A stretch of DNA of 31,623 nt. Source: a virus. The stretch covers positions 1 to 31,623 of IMG/VR virus record IMGVR_UViG_3300042392_000195; one strand, given 5' to 3'. The position numbers and the translations under genes were made by a program. Below the pieces are notes generated by a model. That model was not told the origin of the DNA, did no database searches, and saw only the letters and a list, made by a program, of their open reading frames with translations. Of this stretch, positions 4,578 through 25,814 are shown in pieces (positions within the stretch are counted from its first letter, which is position 1; the number at the start of each line of letters is the position of its first letter).

Positions 4578-5732
4578 TTAAATGAAGTGGTATTGACCGC
4601 TTCCTCTGTTCTCAATCCGGCATTTATTAGCTAAAGCCAAAGCATTAACGCAGTCATCGTGAAATCCTACAGGCGCAGAATACCTTACTCCTGTTGAAGT
4701 AAATAGATATTCAAATATTTCTAATTCGTCTTTAATTGGGCCTTCAGGGAATCCTATTTCTTTTTTATGGATTGAACTTGCAAGGCTTTCCATAAGCTGC
4801 TGCTTACTGGTTGAGGTATATTTAAAGCCGGTCATATCATTAAAGTACTTTTGTAGGTCTTCAACTATTGCATCGCCTACTCCTGTACTATCTATAAAAA
4901 TATGTTTGTGCTTTCGTATCTGTTTAATTGTTTCTTTAGTTTGTAACCAATCCTTTTGGAATCTTTCAAAGTGAGATACATTACCATTGCTATCTAAACC
5001 TATTATAACAGTCCAGTCAAAAGACTTTGCCAAATCTATACCAAAATACATTGCTTCGTTTGAACTTAAATAGCAAGTACATTTATTGATATGCTCTGCA
5101 CCGAAAGGGTTGGCTGCATTCTCCATAGGGTTAGCCATATACTCCTGCTCAAATACCGAACTGGGTAATTGCGCTTTTGCATCGTTAATCTCTGAAGTCT
5201 TAATGTACGGATTGTCGTATGTAGTAAATTTAAAACTTTCCCAATCTCTTTGCCCACCCTTCATATAAAGGGAATAAAAATAGTTTTTACCTCTTGGAGT
5301 AGATAAGAATAACGCTCTGCCTTGATAATCGGTTAAGGTAGGTCTAATTGAATTTAGCCACCCATCTTTTAAATTAGGGATAAAACTTGCTTCATCAATT
5401 ACTACTAAATGAAACTTCCTTCCTCTTAAGTTATCTAATTTTTCTCCAGTAAAAAATTTAACAGTTCCCAAGTTGGGAAAATGAATAGTTAACTCACTTT
5501 TGTTATTTTCGAACGGTACACATTTAATAAGTTGTTCAAAAAATGTTTTAGCTAAATCATATGTTGGTGTAATATATGCCACTCTCATTCCTTGAATTGC
5601 ATTACTTATAATTTCAATCTGACTTAATTCAGACTTACCAAACCGCCTTCCGCACATAACTACTCTAAACCTTGCAGTTGATTCTAGTATTTTAGTTTGG
5701 TTAATATGCGCTTCTGGTAGTTCTAAAATCAT
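4578..5732 (-). CDS. terL: Terminase large subunit
   Basis: This is the DNA-packaging motor. It has an N-terminal ATPase with Walker A GRRFGKS at residues 28-34, Walker B LVVIDEAS with D113 and E114, and the coupling motif STPRG at 145-149. The C-terminal RNase H-like nuclease shows acidic residues in GIDLAKSFDW (D233), IFIDSTG (D281) and GFHDD (D359/D360). At 384 residues it is compact but complete. The ATG at 5732 overlaps the stop of the preceding small-subunit-like gene by 4 nt. The protein would bind the portal and cut phage DNA at the start and end of each packaging cycle. Confidence 0.93.
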   Translation of the reverse strand: MILELPEAHINQTKILESTARFRVVMCGRRFGKSELSQIEIISNAIQGMRVAYITPTYDLAKTFFEQLIKCVPFENNKSELTIHFPNLGTVKFFTGEKLDNLRGRKFHLVVIDEASFIPNLKDGWLNSIRPTLTDYQGRALFLSTPRGKNYFYSLYMKGGQRDWESFKFTTYDNPYIKTSEINDAKAQLPSSVFEQEYMANPMENAANPFGAEHINKCTCYLSSNEAMYFGIDLAKSFDWTVIIGLDSNGNVSHFERFQKDWLQTKETIKQIRKHKHIFIDSTGVGDAIVEDLQKYFNDMTGFKYTSTSKQQLMESLASSIHKKEIGFPEGPIKDELEIFEYLFTSTGVRYSAPVGFHDDCVNALALANKCRIENRGSGQYHFI

Positions 5733-6112
5733 AATATTGTTTTACCCTTAACAAATACTACCTCTATTTTACTATCTTGGGTAACTGCAGTTGTTTCTTT
5801 CGGCTTACCATATACCCTACTCAGTAAAGTATCTACGGAATACAAAGAACCTTTAGCCATTGACTTGATTAAAGCATTAGCCAAAGTCTTTTCTAATATT
5901 GTGCTTTCTTTGTTATCCCATACCGCTTTAAGTTCATCAACAGTCATAGCCATTAATACCTGAATGCAATCCATAACCTGTGCATTCTTATATCCGTGTG
6001 GTGCAAGTTCTGTGATATACTTTCTAGGTCTGCCATTACGATTACCTTTCCAGGCTGCACCTTTCTCATATCGGTTTAAATATCCGCCGTGTGGTTGTTT
6101 CTCTAAAGACAT
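5729..6112 (-). CDS. terS: Probable terminase small subunit
   Basis: The product is 127 residues. Its N-terminal section has a WKGNRNGRPRKY motif (residues about 21-32), typical of small phage DNA-binding packaging proteins whose consensus is W..G.SGNP.GR. A helical middle follows, with a variable tail. It directly precedes and overlaps terL by 4 nt, the usual place for the small subunit, which recognises the packaging site and stimulates the ATPase. It overlaps the upstream methyltransferase gene by 10 nt. The call rests on motif plus position; small subunits diverge strongly. Confidence 0.65.
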   Translation of the reverse strand: MSLEKQPHGGYLNRYEKGAAWKGNRNGRPRKYITELAPHGYKNAQVMDCIQVLMAMTVDELKAVWDNKESTILEKTLANALIKSMAKGSLYSVDTLLSRVYGKPKETTAVTQDSKIEVVFVKGKTIL

Positions 6113-6633
6113 ATTTTAAATAATTTACTCCAAGATGTAGGGTTAAATAAATGCCTATCTAATTCATAACCCATTCTTTTAAACATAGTTACCCATTCAG
6201 TTTGCTGCTTTACGTTTATATGTCCCCATTGTTCATCGTAGTCCGTTTTCTCACTCGTTGAACTAAATAGTACGTAAGTAGGTTTAATGCTCTTAAATAG
6301 GCTTAAAATCTCTTTATCGGTCATATGCTCCGCTACTTCAATGAATGCCATTAAATCGGTTGTAATTGGCTTATCAATGATATTAAGGTGAGGCGCATTT
6401 TCTTTTATATAAACCTTATGCTCATCCCATATTTCATAAACAAAGGTTTCATATCCTTCGTTGTGAAAGGCATCGGAATAAACTCCAGTACCTGCACCAA
6501 AGTCCATTACTGTTTTAATTGGTAAGTCTGTAAATTGTTTAGCCGTTACTAATGCTAAGTTCTTAAAACTAGGATTAGCAAAACTAATTCCCCACTCCAA
6601 TTCTTTCTCTAGGAATTCTTTAGTTGTTATCAT
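6103..6633 (-). CDS. Class I SAM-dependent methyltransferase (176 aa)
   Basis: SAM-binding motif I is visible as VMDFGAGTGVY (residues 42-52), followed by an acidic strand end (VYEIWDE, about 65-71) and the post-motif IEVAEHM. This is the Methyltransf_23 type, acting on small molecules, sugars or proteins. The DNA amino-methyltransferase motif (N/D)PP(Y/F) and the cytosine-C5 motif PC are both absent, so it is not an obvious DNA methylase. It sits between a glycosyltransferase-linked block and the terminase, overlapping its upstream neighbour by 14 nt and its downstream neighbour by 10 nt. It might decorate a sugar or modified base made by the upstream enzymes, but that is inference. Confidence 0.75.
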   Translation of the reverse strand: MITTKEFLEKELEWGISFANPSFKNLALVTAKQFTDLPIKTVMDFGAGTGVYSDAFHNEGYETFVYEIWDEHKVYIKENAPHLNIIDKPITTDLMAFIEVAEHMTDKEILSLFKSIKPTYVLFSSTSEKTDYDEQWGHINVKQQTEWVTMFKRMGYELDRHLFNPTSWSKLFKICL

Positions 6634-6913
6634 ACCATCTATATATTAGGTTTAAAAAATCAATTACGCAAACATTACAATTATTATTATAATGATAATA
6701 AGCATCCTTTACTCTACGATATTCATTTAGTAGTTCTATTTGTACGTCGTGATGAAAGTTTACTATCTCTCCAGTCCTGTGATAGAAGTCGTAGTAATGC
6801 CTGTGCTTATCAAATATTTCATTTGTTTCTTTCTCAACTAATAATGCTTTTGTAGGCATCGTATCGTTGCTGATTAATTTCTTTGAAGTTGTACCTTTTG
6901 GACGCCCACGCAT
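6620..6913 (-). CDS. Small protein with AT-hook-like N-terminus (97 aa)
   Basis: The product begins MRGRPKGTTSKK, where RGRPKG resembles an AT-hook that binds the minor groove of AT-rich DNA. The rest is rich in His, Tyr and Asn, with a C-terminal NNNCNVCVIDFL segment that could bind metal. The gene starts 80 nt inside the preceding glycosyltransferase gene. If a later Met (residue 19, about 6859) is used, the overlap falls to 26 nt. The AT-hook-like start argues for the longer form. It overlaps the methyltransferase gene by 14 nt. Function unknown; proximity to the terminase leaves a packaging accessory role open. Confidence 0.6.
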   Translation of the reverse strand: MRGRPKGTTSKKLISNDTMPTKALLVEKETNEIFDKHRHYYDFYHRTGEIVNFHHDVQIELLNEYRRVKDAYYHYNNNCNVCVIDFLNLIYRWYDNN

Positions 6914-7829
6914 ATAGTTCGTTGCCTAAATTTTCCCTTAGGCTTGGGTTGTTGGTTAATAAATTAATATACCTGAACCAGTCCTTTTGATTGTTTACCC
7001 ATAGTACAGGTGCATCTACATCCATATTATAAGGTGCTACGTTTGAACAAATGACTGGCAATCTTTTTGCTGCTGCTTCTAATATTTTTAAATTGCTTTT
7101 GCAAGCGTGCCATTCTGAATCTTCTAAAGGTATTAATACAATATCTGCAAAGTTGTACATATCCATATACTGAGTAGGACTAGCTGAATGCAATTTGATT
7201 GATGGCAAATTACCAGTAAACATAGAGAACATTTTATCCCATATTGACTTAGTATAAGCATCGCTATCATTATAACCACCCATTACCATTTGAATATCTT
7301 TTCTACCTTGTAACCTTTTTAACGGCTCTTTTAATATCTTAATATCGTTATCGTGGCTTATGCTCCCACACCAAAACAATCTTACCTTATCTGACTTAAC
7401 TCTAGTATCGTTAAACTGATTTAATCCATAGGGTAAGGCATTCGGCATTACAATTACGTTATCATTAAACTGCTTTACTTTATTCAATAAATTAGAATTA
7501 GTAACCGTAACTAAATCTGCCTGCATTAAATTCCGCTCAATCCTTTCAGCTATATCTTGATAAGTATTATAATAAAGATGGTTAAGTGGTAATTGCCAAT
7601 GGTCATCTATATCCATAACTACTTGACATCCAAGTAATTCCTTAGTTTTGTTCCAATTTATATCGTATTGGCATATCCTATTATACAGTAAAATATCCCA
7701 ATCTTCGGTCTTATCTTCTGTGATGTAATTGGTTACATAGCCTTTAATATCATTCATAAAAGCAAGTGGTAACATTACTCTATGATATCCGCAGCCTGAT
7801 TCTTTATGTGTTACTCCTATGATGTTCAT
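6834..7829 (-). CDS. GT-B glycosyltransferase, group 1 / GT4-like (331 aa)
   Basis: The C-terminal half has the features of retaining GT-B enzymes. A GSISHDND turn lies at about residues 155-162, and the nucleotide-sugar site carries the E-x7-E-like element, with ACKSNLKILEAAAKR around E251. The N-terminal half has GYHRVMLPLAF and MDIDDHW. There is no membrane segment or signal peptide. It likely transfers a sugar from a nucleotide-sugar donor; the acceptor is not evident. With a second glycosyltransferase and a TET/JBP-like enzyme upstream, it may add a sugar to modified DNA, though a virion protein or host glycan is also possible. It starts at 7829, 15 nt after the small membrane-protein gene. 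Confidence 0.8.
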   Translation of the reverse strand: MNIIGVTHKESGCGYHRVMLPLAFMNDIKGYVTNYITEDKTEDWDILLYNRICQYDINWNKTKELLGCQVVMDIDDHWQLPLNHLYYNTYQDIAERIERNLMQADLVTVTNSNLLNKVKQFNDNVIVMPNALPYGLNQFNDTRVKSDKVRLFWCGSISHDNDIKILKEPLKRLQGRKDIQMVMGGYNDSDAYTKSIWDKMFSMFTGNLPSIKLHSASPTQYMDMYNFADIVLIPLEDSEWHACKSNLKILEAAAKRLPVICSNVAPYNMDVDAPVLWVNNQKDWFRYINLLTNNPSLRENLGNELYAWASKRYNFKEINQQRYDAYKSIIS

Positions 7830-7844: not shown

Positions 7845-8096
7845 CTATTTTATCTTAATTGATATGAATCCTGCTCCGAATATTATTGCTATTAATTCTA
7901 CTGTATGTATTGGTAAAAATGTAAATAATAAAGCACTCCATACTGTTAAACATTGGATGCAGTCAAATGGTCTTAGTCTCTTTACTAAAGGGATTTTGAA
8001 TATGCGCTTTAGCATGATATGCCCATTAAATACATTAATAAAATAATAAGCAAAGGTAAATGCGGCTATTGTAGTTATCATTGTAGTAAAATACAT
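7845..8096 (-). CDS. Small membrane protein with CxxC-W motif (83 aa)
   Basis: The 83-residue product has two hydrophobic segments (about residues 5-22 and 50-80). Between them is a basic loop ending in RPFDCIQCLTVW, a Cys-x2-Cys...Trp motif I recall in small phage inner-membrane proteins of unknown function. It overlaps the sigma-like gene by 19 nt and lies 15 nt before the GT-B glycosyltransferase. The two cysteines could bind metal or form a disulphide. Function is unknown. Confidence 0.6.
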   Translation of the reverse strand: MYFTTMITTIAAFTFAYYFINVFNGHIMLKRIFKIPLVKRLRPFDCIQCLTVWSALLFTFLPIHTVELIAIIFGAGFISIKIK

Positions 8097-8590
8097 TTTA
8101 ATTCTTTTTTTACTTTGTTAGTAATATTGCAAACGTGGTTAACTGGTATTCCGTAATACTCTGCTACTTTTCTATTGCTTCCTAGTTCTACGTATTTATT
8201 AAATATTCTTATTTCGTGGTCGGTTTCAATGTCTATGTTATTCTTTGTGAGCGCTTTTGTTGCCTCTGCTGCTAAACTCTCAGGGATTATCGGTAAATCT
8301 AACTGACTATTAAAATACTCAACTGCCTTTAATAAATCACTTTTTTTGTACTTATAATAAAATTCACTTGTTTTAGAGGTAGCCATAAACCAACATATCT
8401 TTATAGCATATCGTAATAAGTTATTAGAAGCGAATAAAGCTGCTATCTTATCACAAGGCTGAAGTAGTAAGCTAACTGCTATTTCTTGTCTTAAATCATC
8501 TTGTATTGATTCAGGCTTTGTTTTGCTAATCGCTTTTATAAGGTCAGGATGGTTATATATCTCCAACACAATGTCGTTACACTTATTCAT
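8078..8590 (-). CDS. Sigma-factor-like / helix-turn-helix DNA-binding protein (170 aa)
   Basis: The N-terminal part contains DDLRQEI (residues 31-37), which resembles the D-L-x-Q-E core of sigma-70 region 2. The C-terminal part (about 130-168) has a helix-turn-helix of region-4 type, with VAEYYGIPVNHVCNITNKVKK. The product could redirect host RNA polymerase to phage promoters or act as a simple DNA-binding regulator. Its ATG at 8590 overlaps the stop of the TET/JBP-like gene (TAATG), so it belongs to the same translational chain. Family similarity is weak by eye; I favour sigma-like over a plain transcription regulator. Confidence 0.55.
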   Translation of the reverse strand: MNKCNDIVLEIYNHPDLIKAISKTKPESIQDDLRQEIAVSLLLQPCDKIAALFASNNLLRYAIKICWFMATSKTSEFYYKYKKSDLLKAVEYFNSQLDLPIIPESLAAEATKALTKNNIDIETDHEIRIFNKYVELGSNRKVAEYYGIPVNHVCNITNKVKKELKCILLQ

Positions 8591-9381
8591 TAATCTAATC
8601 CTTTAAAGGCTTTAAGTGGGTAAAAAATAAGTGAATTACGATATCCACCTTCAAACGTTGGTATAATTGGAGTAACTCCGTGAACATTTCTCCAAGCAGG
8701 ATAAACCAGTATTGAATTATCAACCTGACCAATAGTTGCATTATAATCAGGAATATGTAAATCACCGCCTTTTGAATTTAACCTTTTGCATATTATTACA
8801 TTAACACAGTTTTGAATATTACCTGTATCTCTGTGGAATGGTGCAGATATATTAAAGTTTGAAATTGAACTGGTGAATAAATTGCTGAACTTCCATTTAT
8901 CTTTTACATCTGCAAACATCTCTAATTGCATTTCATATTGCTTAGGTAATATTTGTTTTATTAATTGTTCGCTTTCTTTAGCTAAAAGCAACATTGCTTT
9001 AATAAATGTCTGTGCAGACTTTACTGAATGTACTGAACTTTGGCTACCATAATTCCTTCTCATATGTGGTTTAGGTGCAACACTGCCAATTATAGTGCTA
9101 AATTGTTTACAACTCCTATCTATTATACCTTTTCCATTTTTATCAAAACCTAGCATTTTTGGTCTTTGCATTTCAGTTTTAGGTACACTTTTAGATAATA
9201 ACTCAACATTTGCCAAGTCTGCCAATTTGCGCATCTTTTCCGGCATTTGTTTCATATAGAATCCAATTGGTTCGCCATCAGCATAAAAAATACAATCTTC
9301 ATTTACATTAGATTCAATATATTCACACTCCTGTCCAATCTTTCTATTATGTTCAACTTGTATTAAATCAATTCTTGTCAT
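8590..9381 (-). CDS. TET/JBP-like 2-oxoglutarate/Fe(II) dioxygenase (263 aa)
   Basis: The C-terminal third shows the double-stranded beta-helix signature. The metal ligands are H183 and D185 in PFHRDTGN and H234 in VHGVTP, and R248 (YRNSLIFY) is suited to bind 2-oxoglutarate. The HxD followed by xxN and the GGDLHIP strand (residues 205-211) match the TET/JBP pattern, which oxidises the methyl group of 5-methylcytosine or thymine in DNA. The N-terminal 170 residues are family-specific, with a PHMRRNYG segment. The gene follows a TET-associated-type glycosyltransferase with a 4-nt overlap and a ParB-like gene before it, the context expected for base hypermodification. A different 2OG oxygenase cannot be excluded without structure comparison. 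Confidence 0.75.
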   Translation of the reverse strand: MTRIDLIQVEHNRKIGQECEYIESNVNEDCIFYADGEPIGFYMKQMPEKMRKLADLANVELLSKSVPKTEMQRPKMLGFDKNGKGIIDRSCKQFSTIIGSVAPKPHMRRNYGSQSSVHSVKSAQTFIKAMLLLAKESEQLIKQILPKQYEMQLEMFADVKDKWKFSNLFTSSISNFNISAPFHRDTGNIQNCVNVIICKRLNSKGGDLHIPDYNATIGQVDNSILVYPAWRNVHGVTPIIPTFEGGYRNSLIFYPLKAFKGLD

Positions 9382-10109
9382 TTTACAATTTTTTTATAAT
9401 GATTTGCTAATGCTTTTATATCTGTTTTCATATCTATTCGCTCTCCTTTATTTTTTAAAGTTATAAAGGGATTCCATTCATAACACATTTTTTTAGCTGA
9501 CTCCTCATCTTTCTTTAATTTATACATATCTTGCAATCCACCAGCATTAGTTCCAACATCAGGACAGGAAAACCAATAATGATTAAATCTTAATATGCCA
9601 TTGCCATTCTTAATAGTTTGTAAAGCAAAATCCCTGTCTTCTTTTAAATTAAACTCAGGTCTATAATTCCAACTTATTTTAGAAATATTCATTAATACAC
9701 AAACCTCTGCAAATTTCTTATTAATGGAATAAGTTGTTTTTTCGTGCCAAGCGTGTTGAGTATAATTAATACCAATTAATTCAAAAGGTAAATCTTTGAC
9801 TTTTTTTAAAATATCAATCCAAATAGAAGCATCTTTTTTTATTGTCTTTCCATTATAAATTCCAAATGAATTAACATCGTCATCACAAATTAATACCCAT
9901 TCATATTTATTTTTTCTTGCATAATTAAGCATAAAGTTTCTAACATATCCAATACCTTTATTATTTTCTAATATAGATATTTTATTAGGTATGTTATATT
10001 TATCAATCTCTTGTGGTTCAATAAAATGTTTAACCTCAATACCAACCTCTTCAAATAATTTATAAGTTTTAGTATTAAATCTACCTTTAGTTGGTATAAA
10101 ACAAATCAT
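9378..10109 (-). CDS. GT-A glycosyltransferase resembling TET-associated glycosyltransferase (TAGT)
   Basis: The product is a compact GT-A enzyme of 243 residues. It opens with FIPTKGR (residues 4-10), has an NKGIGYVRN segment at 50-58, and a metal-binding DDD at 76-78 in LICDDDVNSFG. A downstream acidic EDRDF (157-161) may supply the catalytic base, and CPDVGTNAGG (182-191) closes the fold. This layout matches TAGT proteins, which glycosylate hydroxymethylated bases made by TET/JBP enzymes. The stop overlaps the start of the TET/JBP-like gene by 4 nt and its own start overlaps the ParB-like gene by 4 nt. Donor sugar unknown. Confidence 0.72.
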   Translation of the reverse strand: MICFIPTKGRFNTKTYKLFEEVGIEVKHFIEPQEIDKYNIPNKISILENNKGIGYVRNFMLNYARKNKYEWVLICDDDVNSFGIYNGKTIKKDASIWIDILKKVKDLPFELIGINYTQHAWHEKTTYSINKKFAEVCVLMNISKISWNYRPEFNLKEDRDFALQTIKNGNGILRFNHYWFSCPDVGTNAGGLQDMYKLKKDEESAKKMCYEWNPFITLKNKGERIDMKTDIKALANHYKKIVK

Positions 10110-10675
10110 ATCTTTTCCTTTTCAGCTTTTAAATATTCCATAATCATACCACCAACATATGCTTTTTGTTCTCTCCAAAATTTAACTAATTCAAAAGCCT
10201 GTTCATAATGTTCAGCTTCAAATTCTATTTGTATAGCTTTCTTAACTCCGTTTATCATATCATTAATTTCAGAAGATATATCTTCTCCATCTAAAATAGA
10301 ATAGTCAACTGGTGCAGCAAACATAGGTAAGTCCATTCCCCAATCTTTTAATTCTATTTCATCCCATTCATTAGCAACCATCTCCCATTCCCATTCTCCG
10401 AAGCCTACATTATCTTTAATAATAAATTCATTCTGCTTTTGTTCGCTCCAGTCAACTACTTCAACGTTAACCTCTTTATATCCGCATTCAATCATAGCTT
10501 TAAAACGCATATTACCTCCAAGTATAATCATATCTTTATTAACCACAATAGGTCGTACTGATTCCATTTCAGGAAAATCCTTAATTGACTTTACAAGTTT
10601 TTTAAACTTTTCATCTTTAATTAATCTTGGATTCTTTGGATTGCTTTTTACTTTATCTACCTTAACTTTTATCAT
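10106..10675 (-). CDS. ParB/sulfiredoxin-like domain protein (189 aa)
   Basis: The ParB N-terminal fold is visible in residues 1-85. It has SNPKNPR at 11-17, a central RPIVV strand, and the nucleotide-binding GGNMRFKAM at 53-61, corresponding to the G-x-x-R box of ParB CTPases. The remaining 100 residues are acidic and helical, without the ParB helix-turn-helix, so this is not a chromosome-segregation ParB. Proteins with this stand-alone domain occur in phage DNA-modification loci. The gene overlaps the glycosyltransferase downstream by 4 nt. It could bind DNA, or act as a nucleotide-dependent enzyme in the modification pathway; the role is inferred. Confidence 0.75.
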   Translation of the reverse strand: MIKVKVDKVKSNPKNPRLIKDEKFKKLVKSIKDFPEMESVRPIVVNKDMIILGGNMRFKAMIECGYKEVNVEVVDWSEQKQNEFIIKDNVGFGEWEWEMVANEWDEIELKDWGMDLPMFAAPVDYSILDGEDISSEINDMINGVKKAIQIEFEAEHYEQAFELVKFWREQKAYVGGMIMEYLKAEKEKI

Positions 10676-10841
10676 TGATTAATTTTTTAATATAAAATAC
10701 TGAATCTAATAATTCTTCGTATAAATGATTTAGCAATTCTTGTTTATTTAAATTAGCATCATCTAGTGTAGTTCCATAAGTTTTAATTCCTTTGTCAATG
10801 CGCTTTTGTAAGTCTGCATTTATATCGTCTAATAATTTCAT
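10662..10841 (-). CDS. Small helical MazG-like phage protein (59 aa)
   Basis: This short frame runs from ATG 10841 (overlapping the HNH gene stop as ATGA) to TAA at 10662, overlapping the ParB-like start by 14 nt. It encodes 59 residues. The segment LNHLYEELLDSVFYIKKL has the HxxEExxDxxxY spacing of the helical MazG-like / nucleotide pyrophosphohydrolase family, but at this length only a fragment of such an enzyme would be present. Tight overlaps on both sides and good codon content support a real gene. Whether it has enzyme activity is doubtful. Confidence 0.65.
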   Translation of the reverse strand: MKLLDDINADLQKRIDKGIKTYGTTLDDANLNKQELLNHLYEELLDSVFYIKKLINDKS

Positions 10842-11110
10842 ATTTTATTTTTCTTTAAAAAGTTCAAATGTATTTCAGTCATTTCTTCAACTGTCCATCT
10901 ATTTTTAAAATCGTAGTCATAATGACAAGTTCTGCATAAAGCGGCAATATTGGTTATTAAATCTTGCTCATCCTTTCTTTTACTCCCAAATTTAGATTGT
11001 GCTATTATATGCGCAATGTCAACCGCTTTACTACCGCATACCTCACACGGAATAAAATCTTCTATACCATATCCAAAATATTTAAAATACTCTTTGGTAT
11101 ATTTTTTCAT
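10838..11110 (-). CDS. HNH endonuclease (90 aa)
   Basis: Ninety residues carry a compact HNH nuclease. The zinc ligands are C22 and C25 (PCEVCGS) and C59 and C62 (ALCRTCH); the HNH residues are H34 (IAHI), N54 (TNIAALC) and H63. Such stand-alone HNH proteins nick or cut double-stranded DNA and are common in phages, as homing-type elements or packaging/replication accessories. Its start at 11110 overlaps the stop of the preceding gene (TAATG) and its stop overlaps the next start as ATGA, so it is well integrated in the operon rather than a recent insertion. Target site not predictable. Confidence 0.8.
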   Translation of the reverse strand: MKKYTKEYFKYFGYGIEDFIPCEVCGSKAVDIAHIIAQSKFGSKRKDEQDLITNIAALCRTCHYDYDFKNRWTVEEMTEIHLNFLKKNKI

Positions 11111-12996: not shown

Positions 12997-13758
12997 TTAT
13001 CTATGGCAAAAAGCACCACAGGATGTTTCTTTTTTTAAAGATTTATAAAGTGTTTCTATTTCATTAAACATTAATTTCTCTTGTTTACATTCTTCAGCTA
13101 ACTGTCTTAGACTTTTACCATTGCCCATTATAGAATAATACTTTAATCTTTTATCCTGCATCCCTTCCTCAAACTCAATCATTTCATTAAACTCTTTATT
13201 ATTTAAATGATACATTGCTCTGTATTCTTTTTCTGATTTAAAAAAGCACATTCTACATCCACCCCTTAACATATAGACTGGAAACTCAGGATGTAGATTA
13301 TTTAGTTTTAAAATATCTTCGCAATCATTTCTATTTAAACTATTTTCAATTAAAGGATAACTATATTTAACATTTGACTTTAATTCTAAATTACCAGTTC
13401 TACCTTCTTCATCTGCATTAAAACCTATCATTAATTCACATTCGCCTTGATTATGTAAAAAGTTATCTATTGGCTCAATCTTAAAAAGTCTTGTACAATA
13501 TCTTGCTTGACCTGAAGGCATATACTTTTGTTTCTTAGCATAAGCCTCTAATCCTAAATGTTTTTCATTATTAACTTTTACTAAATTAAAATCTCCTTTG
13601 TGTAATGTTTTTAATTTATCTTCTACATAATTAATTCTTTTATACATTTCATTATGTTCTGCTCCTGTATCACACCATATCGCAGTTGCACCTTTACCAT
13701 ATAAAATACACATAGTAGTACTTTCTACACCTCCGCTAAAACTTATAAATCTTTTCAT
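12997..13758 (-). CDS. PAPS-reductase-family PP-loop enzyme (253 aa)
   Basis: An N-terminal PP-loop SFSGGVES (residues 6-13) followed by WCDTGAE (28-34) marks an ATP-pyrophosphatase of the PAPS/adenylyl-sulfate reductase superfamily. ARYCTRLFKIEP (85-96), LMIGFNADEEGR (109-120) and a later GGCRMC pair (C168, C171) complete the core. The C-terminus carries two more Cys (SCGAFCHR). Phage members are common; their substrates are mostly unknown, with DndC-type DNA sulfur modification one possibility. The stop lies at the edge of the non-coding gap and the start overlaps the DnaB stop by 4 nt. No dnd partner genes are present. Confidence 0.8.
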   Translation of the reverse strand: MKRFISFSGGVESTTMCILYGKGATAIWCDTGAEHNEMYKRINYVEDKLKTLHKGDFNLVKVNNEKHLGLEAYAKKQKYMPSGQARYCTRLFKIEPIDNFLHNQGECELMIGFNADEEGRTGNLELKSNVKYSYPLIENSLNRNDCEDILKLNNLHPEFPVYMLRGGCRMCFFKSEKEYRAMYHLNNKEFNEMIEFEEGMQDKRLKYYSIMGNGKSLRQLAEECKQEKLMFNEIETLYKSLKKETSCGAFCHR

Positions 13759-21572: not shown

Positions 21573-24500
21573 TTATTTGTTTTCTAATGTTTCTATTCTT
21601 TTAATTAATGCTTCATTTTTAGCTGATAGTTCTTGAATAGCCTTTGTTAAAATAGCTATCATACTATTGTACTCAACCCCTGCTAATTTTTTAGTTCCAT
21701 CATTTTCAACATTATAAAAAACTAAATCTTTATTTACCTTCTCAACTTCATCAGCTATGAATCCATACGATGTATTTTCAACTAATTCATCAGTATATTC
21801 ATTAGTTAAATTATCTTTTTTACGATAATTAAATGATACAGGGTTTAGTTGATTAATAAAAGAAACGTTACTTATAGATTGAATATTACCTTTTGATTCT
21901 CTAGTAGATACTAAATAACCTAAACCACCACCACTTTCAATTACCATTGACCTTCCTGTAGTTGGATTATTATATGGAGAATATGAACCTGTGCCTGAAT
22001 TAAAAAATCCATCATTTCTGATATACATTAAATTATCTAAATCTAAACTTCTAACTGCAAAAGCATTTGCTGCACTTGTATTTCCTGCTCCTATAGCCGT
22101 TAATCTTGCAGTATTATAAGTTCCTCCTATTAATACATTGCCCCCACTTGTAATACGCATTCTTTCTGTATTGCTTGTAGCAAATGTTATATTACTTGCA
22201 GTTTCTGCTGTAATTGCAATAAGACCTGTTGTATTATTTAAAAATAAATCATTACCGCTTTGAAATAAATATGATTTACTTGCTCCTCCTACACTTAATG
22301 CTAATAAACTTGAACTTGTACCATTAACATCTAATGTAGTTCTATTTGTAGTAGTAAAATTTGGACTTGTAGTTCCTATTCCTACATTGCCACCTGTTGT
22401 AATAGTCATTCTTGCAGCTTGGTTAGTTCCAAACTGTAAAGCAGTATTTGAAATAGATTGTAAAAGTGTAGCATTAGATAATCCCCCTGTCATTAAATCT
22501 CCTCCTGCATTACTTTCTATTCCATAAGAACCAACTCCTGTAGTATTAGAAACTCTATAAGCATTTACTGCTCCTGTAGTTGCAGCGTTACTGTTAAAGT
22601 TTGCACCTGAACTACCAAAGCTACTTGTTACACTACTAGAGAATGTAGCTGCTCCTGTTAGTGTAGCAACTCTAAAATAAGGGGTTGAACCTAAATTTGA
22701 TAATACAAAATCTCCTGTAACTGCATTATCTCTTCCAAAATCCCAATAGTTCCCACCACCTGCATCTGAACTTCTAATATTACCTTTACCACCTCCACTT
22801 GATGAACCCCCACCATATACAATAAAATTCGGAGTAACACTTGCACCTGTATTAAAAATTGCATTTGTTCCTGTTAATAACCCACTAAACGTTGCACTTG
22901 TCCCACCCAAAGCACCTGTAAGTGTACCACCTGTTAATGGTAGATATCCACTCAATGTAGCAGTAGAAACTTTATTATTAAAAGTAGTCCAATCAGTAGC
23001 TGACAAATAACCATTTGCTGAACCAGTTGCTACAGGAATAGAAATAGTATTTGTAGTCCTTACTAAAGGAGATGAAAATGTTAATACAGATTCTTTACCA
23101 TTAAAAGTACTCCAATCAGTTGAACTTAAATACCCATTTACTGAACTTGATGCAGCAGGTATAGAAATAGCAGGTGTAGTTCCACCTGAAGAAACTATTG
23201 GAGAAGTTCCTGTAACACTTGTTACATAAGTACCTGCAGCTTGATACTGTGGAATATTTAAAGTATTAGAACTAAAGGTTGCTGCTCCACTTGTGCCTGT
23301 AGTAGTTAATGTTATTGCTGCTTGTTTAGAATTAATTGCGCTTTGATATCCGCTAAGCATAGAAGCGGTATCTGAAATATTTAATTTTAAATTTATTCTA
23401 TTACTTAAAGAACTTGTATCAGCCTTTCTTAAGTAAGGACTTAACATAGAAGCAGTATCACTTATATTTAGTTTTAAATTAATTCGGTTACTTAAAGAAG
23501 TTGTATCACTACTTATTGCTTGACTAGATAAAACTCCATTTGCATCTGCCACTACCATACGAGTTCCTGTACCTGAAAGATTTGATATTACTACATTACC
23601 ACCTGCTTTTAATTTCATTACTGGATTAACGTTTGACTCGTTAAAAACCAAATCATTATTGTCAGAAGAGAAATCCCATAATTTATTAGATGAAGATGTA
23701 TTTTGAAATATTAAACCACCATTTGTATTAGTAGTATTCATTAAAATATTACCATTATAACTTCCAACCTGTAAAGCACCAAAATTACCTATTGTAGTAC
23801 TTACACTTACAACGTTTCCGTCATCTTTAATATTACTATTTCCTATGGTAGTTGATGATGTAAATTTAGGAACTGTGTTTGTAGTTCCGATTAGTGCATC
23901 CGCTTTTGCATTGATACGATTTGATAAACTAGCCGTATCAGTATAATTCATTTTATTGCTTACCCTTGCATCTGTATAATATAGATTAGTTCCCTCTGCA
24001 ATGTTTGAAGTAGTGCCTTCTACCTTAGTCCATAAATTAGTAGAAGTTTTGTATTGCAATAAACTGTTATTACTTGGACTTTGTGCAGATACATTATGCA
24101 GTTCATCCATCTCATAACCATTCTGAATCTTTACAGATATAACCCCTTGTGTAGGATGGCTTCTAGTAACAACACCAACATAAACTAAATGCGATGGAGC
24201 ATACTGTTTAGTGCTTGTGAATAAACCTGCAGTTGGACTTAAATATAATTGAGTACCTTCTAAAAAAGCACTTGTAGGCATATCTATTAAATCTCCAATT
24301 ACAATTACATAACCATTTGAATTATCACTTATGTCTGCTTTTACTAAACCAAAAGTTTGTGCAGAAAGACTATCCGATGAAGCTGCTGCTTTTGTAACTG
24401 TTGGTAAATTTCCGTGACCACCATTAATAAAAACAACTGTTCCTTTTGTTAAGGTTGCACCTGTTTCATTATATACTTCTTTAACTAATGTTTCAACCTC

Positions 24501-25814
24501 TGTTACTATACCCTGCATAGTTTGTAAAGCACCAGTACCATCTATATACTGACTTGTATTTCCTGCACCTGTAACTGTTAATGTTCCTGTGCTTGTAACA
24601 GGGCTATTAGTAACACTAAATGCAGATGGCATAGATAAACCTACACTTGTAACCGCACTCTTTAAATACGGACTTAGCATTGCTGCAGTATCTGAATATT
24701 TAACTCGTAAATCAATTCTATTAGACAATGAACTTGTATCCGCTTCCCTAAGATAAGGACTAAGCATTGAAGCAGTATCGCTGATATTAAGTTTTAAATT
24801 TATCCTATTAGATATTGAAGTAGAATCAAAAGTAGGTATAGTCCAAGTACGATTTGCACTTAAATTATAAGTTACCCCATTAATAGTAAGTGTAGTTGCC
24901 TTATCTGCTTTTAAATTAATCCTATTGGATAGGTTAACAGTATCTTCTACTAAAGCTAAAGTTCCAGTTCTTACTGGTAAATTATAATTAAAGGTTGTTA
25001 AATAACCATCGCCTTCTACTGGATAAAGAAAGGTTGCTTGTCTAGACTTTGTTAAATTATTAGGTAAAAGTCTGCTTGTTCTAAAATTAAATGCCTCATT
25101 AGAAGTATATAAAGAAGTATAACCAACTTTATCGCCAATCCCTGCTCCGTTATCTTGAATTTCTACTCCTGCATTTGCAGTTAAAAAAGTACCCGTTAAA
25201 TCATAAACTCCTAAATCAACATCTTTATTTGCCCCAACATATGGCACATAAGCATCACTTAAAGTATCTGAATACTTAGGGATATTTAAAGTATCTCGTA
25301 TTAATGTTGCTGCTCCACTTTTAAAATTAGTAGTTAATTTAATTATATTTTGTTTCTCATCAATTCTCCTAGATAAACTAGCCGTATCTAATTTGCGTAA
25401 ATAAGGCAAAAGCATTGCTGCCGTATCGGAATATTTTACCCTTAAATTAATTCTATTGGATAAAGAAACAGTATCAATAAATTTCATATAAGGCAAAAGC
25501 ATTGCAGCAGTATCACTTATATTTAATTTACCGTTAATTCTATTTGAAATATTAGTACTATCTAAGTTAGCTTTAATCCATTGAAAGCCACTAAAAACAT
25601 ACAAGCCACTATCAGTTACATTATATCTAATTTGTCCGGCATCTCTACCACCTGTTATATTTCTTAACTGATTGATATTCAACGGAATAGTTAACACACT
25701 ATCAAATAACATACGCTTAACAGGACCATATCCTGCCTGTGGCATAGCTTGATAAACCTGTGCTTTTAATCCAAAAGATAATAAAACTAATAATGTTACA
25801 ATGGCACGTCGCAT
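21573..25814 (-). CDS. Fibre-like protein with Sec signal peptide and C-terminal S74 chaperone (1413 aa)
   Basis: The longest gene in the window. Residues 1-18 (MRRAIVTLLVLLSFGLKA) are a signal peptide cleaved before Q19. Next come repeats of the type DTxSLSNRINLKxNISDT in three blocks (about 81-150, 329-388, 767-832). An all-beta module lies at about 430-565, and long Gly/Ser/Thr-rich beta segments follow. The last 110 residues (about 1304-1413) are an S74 intramolecular chaperone: S1303 with Lys five residues on in STRESKGNI (Ser-Lys dyad), SYGFIADEVEK, and a C-terminal coiled coil. S74 domains trimerise fibres and then cleave themselves off. The gene overlaps the tail-completion gene by 19 nt. 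The signal peptide is odd for a virion fibre; an exported surface protein is an alternative. Confidence 0.82.
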   Translation of the reverse strand: MRRAIVTLLVLLSFGLKAQVYQAMPQAGYGPVKRMLFDSVLTIPLNINQLRNITGGRDAGQIRYNVTDSGLYVFSGFQWIKANLDSTNISNRINGKLNISDTAAMLLPYMKFIDTVSLSNRINLRVKYSDTAAMLLPYLRKLDTASLSRRIDEKQNIIKLTTNFKSGAATLIRDTLNIPKYSDTLSDAYVPYVGANKDVDLGVYDLTGTFLTANAGVEIQDNGAGIGDKVGYTSLYTSNEAFNFRTSRLLPNNLTKSRQATFLYPVEGDGYLTTFNYNLPVRTGTLALVEDTVNLSNRINLKADKATTLTINGVTYNLSANRTWTIPTFDSTSISNRINLKLNISDTASMLSPYLREADTSSLSNRIDLRVKYSDTAAMLSPYLKSAVTSVGLSMPSAFSVTNSPVTSTGTLTVTGAGNTSQYIDGTGALQTMQGIVTEVETLVKEVYNETGATLTKGTVVFINGGHGNLPTVTKAAASSDSLSAQTFGLVKADISDNSNGYVIVIGDLIDMPTSAFLEGTQLYLSPTAGLFTSTKQYAPSHLVYVGVVTRSHPTQGVISVKIQNGYEMDELHNVSAQSPSNNSLLQYKTSTNLWTKVEGTTSNIAEGTNLYYTDARVSNKMNYTDTASLSNRINAKADALIGTTNTVPKFTSSTTIGNSNIKDDGNVVSVSTTIGNFGALQVGSYNGNILMNTTNTNGGLIFQNTSSSNKLWDFSSDNNDLVFNESNVNPVMKLKAGGNVVISNLSGTGTRMVVADANGVLSSQAISSDTTSLSNRINLKLNISDTASMLSPYLRKADTSSLSNRINLKLNISDTASMLSGYQSAINSKQAAITLTTTGTSGAATFSSNTLNIPQYQAAGTYVTSVTGTSPIVSSGGTTPAISIPAASSSVNGYLSSTDWSTFNGKESVLTFSSPLVRTTNTISIPVATGSANGYLSATDWTTFNNKVSTATLSGYLPLTGGTLTGALGGTSATFSGLLTGTNAIFNTGASVTPNFIVYGGGSSSGGGKGNIRSSDAGGGNYWDFGRDNAVTGDFVLSNLGSTPYFRVATLTGAATFSSSVTSSFGSSGANFNSNAATTGAVNAYRVSNTTGVGSYGIESNAGGDLMTGGLSNATLLQSISNTALQFGTNQAARMTITTGGNVGIGTTSPNFTTTNRTTLDVNGTSSSLLALSVGGASKSYLFQSGNDLFLNNTTGLIAITAETASNITFATSNTERMRITSGGNVLIGGTYNTARLTAIGAGNTSAANAFAVRSLDLDNLMYIRNDGFFNSGTGSYSPYNNPTTGRSMVIESGGGLGYLVSTRESKGNIQSISNVSFINQLNPVSFNYRKKDNLTNEYTDELVENTSYGFIADEVEKVNKDLVFYNVENDGTKKLAGVEYNSMIAILTKAIQELSAKNEALIKRIETLENK
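23319..23516 (-). repeat. Internal repeat block 3 of fibre-like gene
   Basis: Encodes residues about 767-832, two copies of the DTxSLSNRINLKLNISDTASMLS unit. The same unit recurs in blocks 24651-24830 and 25365-25574, with clear DNA-level similarity (for example the common AAGCAGTATC core). Such repeats can change number by recombination. Confidence 0.7.
24651..24830 (-). repeat. Internal repeat block 2 of fibre-like gene
   Basis: Encodes residues about 329-388, with two units of the same repeat, one in the KYSDTAAML form and one in the NISDTASML form. Confidence 0.7.
25365..25574 (-). repeat. Internal repeat block 1 of fibre-like gene
   Basis: Encodes residues about 81-150, with NISDTAAMLLPYM and KYSDTAAMLLPYL units. 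It lies just after the signal-peptide-bearing N-terminal region. Confidence 0.7.

Follow-up and report, generated by a model that had tools for sequence, protein, structure and literature searches.

A two-part ParB and an exchangeable middle gene accompany a TET/JBP oxygenase in tailed phages

Known systems and the locus under study

JBP oxidises thymine in DNA. In phages, TET systems with a co-encoded C5-methyltransferase were reportedly described by Burke et al. in 2021, and Lee et al. are said to have described thymidine hypermodification through 5hmdUTP in SP10, M6 and ViI. Actinophage loci with ParB, TET, aGPT-Pplase and kinase genes, present in Rhodococcus phage Tonitrus (PMC11955845), LilMcDreamy, LittleMunchkin and Ottawa, include the already reported association of ParB with TET. 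The authors of the Tonitrus work saw in its locus a possible system for hypermodifying thymidine, and enzymes of the amino acid:DNA transferase, aGPT-Pplase2 and kinase types are linked to hydroxymethyluracil chemistry (PMC11955845). TAGT has also been reported in phage loci (PMC11955845, PMC13390438, PMC13216743); in T-even phages it acts on glucosyl-hmC (PMC13390438, PMC13216743), and that of T6 adds a second sugar (PMC13216743). ParB-superfamily proteins are paired with in-DNA base-modifying enzymes, as in the locus described here, in ParB with CmoX (PMC12783734) and DpdB with DpdA (PMC12839542). The function of ParB beside CmoX, and its role beside phage base-modification enzymes, was stated as unknown in recent work (PMC12783734).

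The stretch analysed here (the window) is the linear IMG/VR virus record IMGVR_UViG_3300042392_000195, of 31,623 bp. Its left end interrupts a tail gene, so it is probably a fragment, and its terminase, lysozyme and DnaB-type helicase genes identify it as a tailed phage. With the Burke-type systems it has in common a TET and the decoration of DNA with sugars or other groups, but it lacks the C5-methyltransferase that defines them. Its final base class is likely that of SP10, M6 and ViI (5hmU-derived), and some of their decorating enzymes occur in its relatives; unlike those phages, it has no thymidylate-synthase homologue, and the hydroxyl would be made on DNA by TET. The actinophage loci resemble it in having ParB first and TET next, near the terminase and without a C5-methyltransferase; their TETs are only about 25% identical to that of the window, and decoration follows an amino-acid/kinase route, whereas the window has TAGT between ParB and TET. 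The CmoX and DpdA pairs differ in their chemistry and in that the C-domain of the window-type ParB follows its TET partner.

Among cultured phages, Prochlorococcus phages MED4-184, MED4-117 and P-HS2 encode a TET 50% identical to that of the window, and the order ParB, slot, TET, small gene and TerL is common to the window, MED4-184 and MED4-117. Their slot holds an FkbM methyltransferase (predicted product, a methyl ether) in place of TAGT, and their annotations read 'DNA methylase' and 'queuine tRNA-ribosyltransferase'. In Nonlabens phage P12024L, TET also adjoins TAGT without a C5-methyltransferase; however, this TET is only 19% identical, the order is TET, TAGT and N6/N4 methylase, and no adjoining ParB was found. 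In the literature consulted, which did not extend to Iyer 2013 or Burke 2021, we found no description of a slot exchanged in this way, of a bipartite ParB or of the natural swap reported below.

A three-gene cassette of ParB, TAGT and TET/JBP

Three genes follow each other on the minus strand: first ParB (10106-10675, 189 aa), then TAGT (9378-10109, 243 aa) and last TET/JBP (8590-9381, 263 aa). As the first-pass annotation had noted from the letters, both the ParB/TAGT and the TAGT/TET junctions are 4-nt ATGA overlaps, and the families that it had named are borne out by Pfam, with all three proteins above the curated cut-offs: ParB_N (PF02195, E 1e-6, 29.1 bits, cut-off 26.3), TAGT (PF20691, E 6.2e-15, 56.1 bits, cut-off 27.5) and Tet_JBP (PF12851, E 1.6e-9, 37.7 bits, cut-off 34.9). 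One base is common to TET and the next gene (TAATG), which encodes a 170-aa protein (8078-8590, minus strand; cluster 6) present in 69 related loci and without a Pfam family match. The terminase large subunit, a conserved neighbour of the cassette, lies further downstream (4578-5732, minus strand; PHROG 2, E 3.6e-46). The same gene order recurs in dozens of distinct contigs, so the grouping is not due to chance.

The HxD...H...R motif of the dioxygenase, seen earlier in the single sequence, corresponds to H183, D185, H234 and R248, which are invariant in an alignment of 31 TET relatives. The AlphaFold2 model (pLDDT 90.8) retrieved human TET2 (E 1.5e-11), CcTet, NgTet1 and CMD1 with Foldseek ahead of any other structure, and in VIA-align TET2 (Z 19.0) and NgTet1 (Z 18.7) stood above FTO/AlkB (at or below 14.3); the placement in a non-DNA 2OG family that the first-pass annotation had named as contrary to its reading was thus not observed. 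According to this model, the oxygenase belongs with the DNA TET/JBP enzymes and is predicted to oxidise a DNA base. Searches of PDB sequences with the single TET and TAGT proteins returned nothing useful, and a PDB search with a TAGT profile gave no match. The label 'queuine tRNA-ribosyltransferase', given to this TET family by PHROG and RefSeq, is ruled out by Pfam, active site and fold; it is carried by TET/JBP proteins at L002:17129-17914 (MED4-184) and L203:855-1787 and by PHROG 6059.

The middle protein is a GT-A type glycosyltransferase whose previously noted DDD motif (D77, D78 and D158) is invariant in 22 aligned sequences, as are G190 and G191. It would add a sugar to 5-hydroxymethyl-pyrimidine DNA; to assume that it accepts a bare hydroxymethyl is to extrapolate, since the TAGT of T6 adds a second sugar (PMC13216743). 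The logic of oxidation followed by sugar addition proposed earlier is supported by the Pfam profiles, the fold and conserved synteny. That proposal had left the choice between 5mC and T open and had listed ParB without explaining it, two points taken up below.

The slot between ParB and TET is exchangeable

At least 598 TET relatives were found in viral contigs, the best 80 of which were taken on; together with loci reached via ParB and TAGT and with named phages, they gave 127 distinct TET loci for comparison. ParB lies directly upstream of TET on the same strand in 120 of the 127, the exceptions being mostly contig ends or ORF-calling failures, and in 108 of 122 loci TerL follows TET at a distance of no more than five genes. 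The decorating enzyme between ParB and TET is freely swapped: the slot holds TAGT in 69 loci, an FkbM methyltransferase (PF05050) in 31, including the cultured Prochlorococcus phages, a GT-B-like protein in five, a P-loop protein, alone or accompanied by another gene, in five, TAGT plus a sulfotransferase in one and another gene in one. It is empty in seven loci, which we count against the cassette model. In two of the three P-loop loci examined by Pfam, an amino acid:DNA transferase (PF18724) is the further gene or one of them, and in L036 and L052 class-II-amidotransferase-like and GNAT-like genes lie beside this transferase.

Examples of the FkbM slot are L002:16431-17132 (MED4-184), L043:922-1620 and about 50 others. 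This enzyme predicts a methyl ether of a 5-hydroxymethyl-pyrimidine, which to our knowledge is known as a DNA base in no organism. The sulfotransferase between TAGT and TET (L035:1684-2247; PF03567, E 4e-16) points to a possible sulfated sugar on DNA. Distant actinophages retain the ParB-TET pair, which in most cases sits at the genome's terminase end, and supplement it with ADDT, aGPT-Pplase2, a P-loop kinase, or TAGT with a GlcNAc de-N-acetylase. In Arthrobacter phage Prairie, a PIG-L GlcNAc de-N-acetylase follows TET and TAGT (L205:5406-5996), which suggests that GlcNAc may be transferred and then deacetylated on DNA.

ParB consists of two parts with different histories

The GGNMR box reported earlier is present at ParB residues 53-57, where it reads GGNMRxKA, compared with the GERRxRA-type CTP box of ParB CTPases. 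The box lies in an N-domain of ParB/Srx-type fold (residues 1-120; 10316-10675, minus strand), supported by PF02195 and by fold matches. In the ParB model (pLDDT 83), it is followed by a linker of low confidence around residues 120-150 and, at the C-terminus, by a hairpin of helices; residues 121-189 (10106-10315, minus strand) form the C-domain. The N-domain model matches CTP/CDP-bound ParB, Noc and KorB in Foldseek, with weaker matches to sulfiredoxin and free serine kinase (SerK). ParB_N is the only Pfam family above its cut-off in the 189-aa protein, and beyond the N-domain the model shows two short helices, without a separate recognised HTH.

Judged from sequence comparison, ParB is bipartite, with an N-domain that is freely exchanged and a C-domain co-inherited with TET. 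The N-domain is swapped in eight relatives (L010, L014, L017, L023, L039, L154, L158 and L161), whose C-domains are 69-79% identical to that of the window while their N-domains are only about 20% identical. Across 117 loci, the pairwise identity of the C-domain is correlated with that of TET (r 0.65, Mantel p 0.001), whereas that of the N-domain is not (r -0.07). The C-domain correlation holds when the two loci compared differ in their middle gene (r 0.72), and without one divergent clade it is weaker and still distinct (r 0.35, Mantel p 0.001). Physical linkage is rejected as its cause because TAGT, which lies between ParB and TET, does not track TET (r -0.03). A profile of the TET-type C-domain matches 117 of 117 TET-type and 0 of 54 TAGT-only ParBs, and the TAGT-only profile matches 54 of 54 TAGT-only and 0 of 117 TET-type ParBs. 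The C-domain is thus a predicted TET dock, although co-inheritance by itself is not proof of contact.

A natural swap is found in L144 (IMGVR_UViG_3300034356_000472), whose two flanks share 91-95% identity with the window. Window positions 8593-10315, from about ParB codon 120 in the interdomain linker to the end of TET, are replaced there by 947 bp encoding a different ParB C-domain and a different TAGT, while the N-domain is kept at about 94% identity; no TET was found within its 19.8 kb. The TAGT of L144 led to a sister family of 80 loci, 73 of them with a ParB match, whose N-domains have a median identity of 56%, and up to about 94%, to that of the window. TET was absent from the fetched sister loci and from 24 larger sister records, in a search that does detect the window TET. 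This TET-less sister system (L144:5001-6307; L234-L313) consists of a ParB with the other C-domain and a strong TAGT (PF20691, E 7e-37), and its loci adjoin TerS/TerL, often with an NDP-sugar epimerase. The best reading of the swap and of the C-domain split is that ParB would be a loader with a C-domain fitted to its partner enzyme.

ParB likewise stands ahead of DpdA/queC-E in Hedgerow and of PAPS reductase in Athena and Salgado, evidence that its role is a general one; in further phages it precedes a GNAT/ATPase-like gene. These arrangements suggest that ParB may act as an adaptor bringing modifying enzymes to DNA. Two labels were examined and set aside: the 'DNA methylase' of MED4-184 is a ParB in which Pfam finds only ParB_N, just below the cut-off, and gp28 of P12024L, considered as a ParB, is an N6/N4 methylase.

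Thymine is the most likely substrate

No C5-cytosine methyltransferase (PF00145) was detected in the window, itself a fragment, and searches of nine isolate genomes whose TETs are related or similar (MED4-184, MED4-117, P12024L, Cinna, Tonitrus, LilMcDreamy, LittleMunchkin, Prairie and Ottawa) likewise found none. One was present in 11 of 65 related records and not found in the other 54, a rate that does not clearly exceed the one in the TET-less sister set (2 of 25). P12024L-type TETs, intended as the C5-methyltransferase-positive control, had one in 0 of 14 cases, so that the comparison is made without a positive control. The missing methyltransferase points to thymine rather than 5mC as the TET substrate; thymine is thus most likely, a choice drawn from an absence, although the sequences of most relatives are incomplete and 5mC could come from a methyltransferase of the host. 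A thymidylate-synthase-type hydroxymethylase (PF00303) was found in 0 of 17 records, with the window again a fragment, so the hydroxyl is most likely made by TET; none was found in the 24 larger TET-less sister records either.

Proposed mechanism and alternatives

Our preferred reading, to which we give slightly better than an even chance, is that the cassette oxidises a base of phage DNA, most likely T, which TAGT then glycosylates, with ParB loading the enzymes. Modification would occur in place on the phage's own DNA, after replication and probably before packaging. The N-domain, predicted to be a nucleotide-controlled clamp or reader, would bind phage DNA, and the C-domain would dock TET, loading the modifying enzymes onto the DNA without ParB itself performing base chemistry. 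TET/JBP would hydroxylate a base methyl, most likely the natural methyl of thymine, to give 5-hydroxymethyluracil; TAGT would add a sugar to the new hydroxyl, and the modified DNA would then be packaged. Protection of phage DNA from host nucleases is a plausible outcome.

The main rival is a cytosine version, in which 5mC is made by a methyltransferase that belongs to the host or has escaped recognition, TET converts it to 5hmC and TAGT glycosylates the product, as in the phage TET systems described with a C5-methyltransferase. It appears unlikely, although it accords with the nearest solved structures being 5mC TETs, with the action of T-even TAGT on glucosyl-hmC (PMC13390438, PMC13216743) and with the 11 methyltransferase-positive records. 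The methyltransferase is missing from the nine isolates and from the window, lies kilobases off the cassette in the three records whose coordinates were compared, and is similarly frequent in TET-less sister phages; reliance on host 5mC would also tie protection to host sequence sites. That sugar or oxidation is placed instead on a receptor glycan, a protein or another non-DNA target is barely credible: a second, general glycosyltransferase and a methyltransferase do lie nearby, but the TET fold and the TAGT family are DNA-linked, the slot alternatives include the DNA-specific ADDT, and there is the link with ParB.

ParB has two further rival readings. Database records annotate it as a ParB-like nuclease or partition protein, and it could be such a protein, or a regulator, merely placed in the operon; this is improbable given that it is linked to TET almost without exception even across very distant phages, the lack of a recognised parS-binding HTH in Pfam and in the model, and a C-domain tied to enzyme type (117/117 against 0/54). 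Still more improbable is a catalytic ParB, a SerK/sulfiredoxin-like kinase that would phosphorylate the new hydroxymethyl and so make it reactive for the middle enzyme. The N-domain model does match free serine kinase and sulfiredoxin; yet the glycosyl- and methyltransferases found with ParB have no need of an activated hydroxyl, ParB also occurs with DpdA and PAPS reductase, a P-loop protein is already present beside it where a kinase would be needed, and very different ParB domains take the place of the N-domain while TET is unchanged.

More broadly, and as a tentative proposal that we rate somewhat below an even chance, the ParBs of base-modification loci would be two-part loaders, each combining an exchangeable, nucleotide-switched DNA module with an enzyme-family-specific dock (a TET dock, a TAGT-only dock and perhaps DpdA, PAPS-reductase and CmoX docks). 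Phages would change their DNA chemistry by swapping dock and enzyme, and the slot would be a source of undescribed bases, for example a 5-hydroxymethyluracil methyl ether in FkbM phages, including the cultured Prochlorococcus phages. The bipartite ParB, the match of its C-domain with TET and the L144 swap make its role directly testable. If the proposal is true, one modular loader would underlie many phage DNA chemistries, new bases would be predicted in phages already cultured, and a possible route to placing oxidised or glycosylated bases in DNA would follow.

Neighbouring genes in the window

Between TET and the terminase lie, on the minus strand, a GT-B type glycosyltransferase (6834-7829; PF13692, E 3.2e-6, above cut-off; cluster 15, in 33 loci) and a SAM methyltransferase (6103-6633; PF13489, above cut-off; cluster 29, in 17 loci). 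Both are retained in the TET-less L144 and are perhaps, for that reason, TET-independent. The glycosyltransferase possibly performs a later decoration step and the methyltransferase sugar or hydroxyl methylation, or they may be unrelated; a relative of the methyltransferase adjoins ParB in L046. Beside the DnaB-type helicase is a PAPS-reductase-family protein (12997-13758), and a gene of this type adjoins ParB genes and the terminase in mycobacteriophage Athena and Arthrobacter phage Salgado. A small HNH protein (10838-11110; PF01844, E 1.1e-6) is encoded upstream of ParB, and its relatives are also found between TET and terminase genes in several loci. A 1,413-aa tail-fibre-like protein (21573-25814) has a C-terminus that, by eye only, resembles an S74-type intramolecular chaperone.
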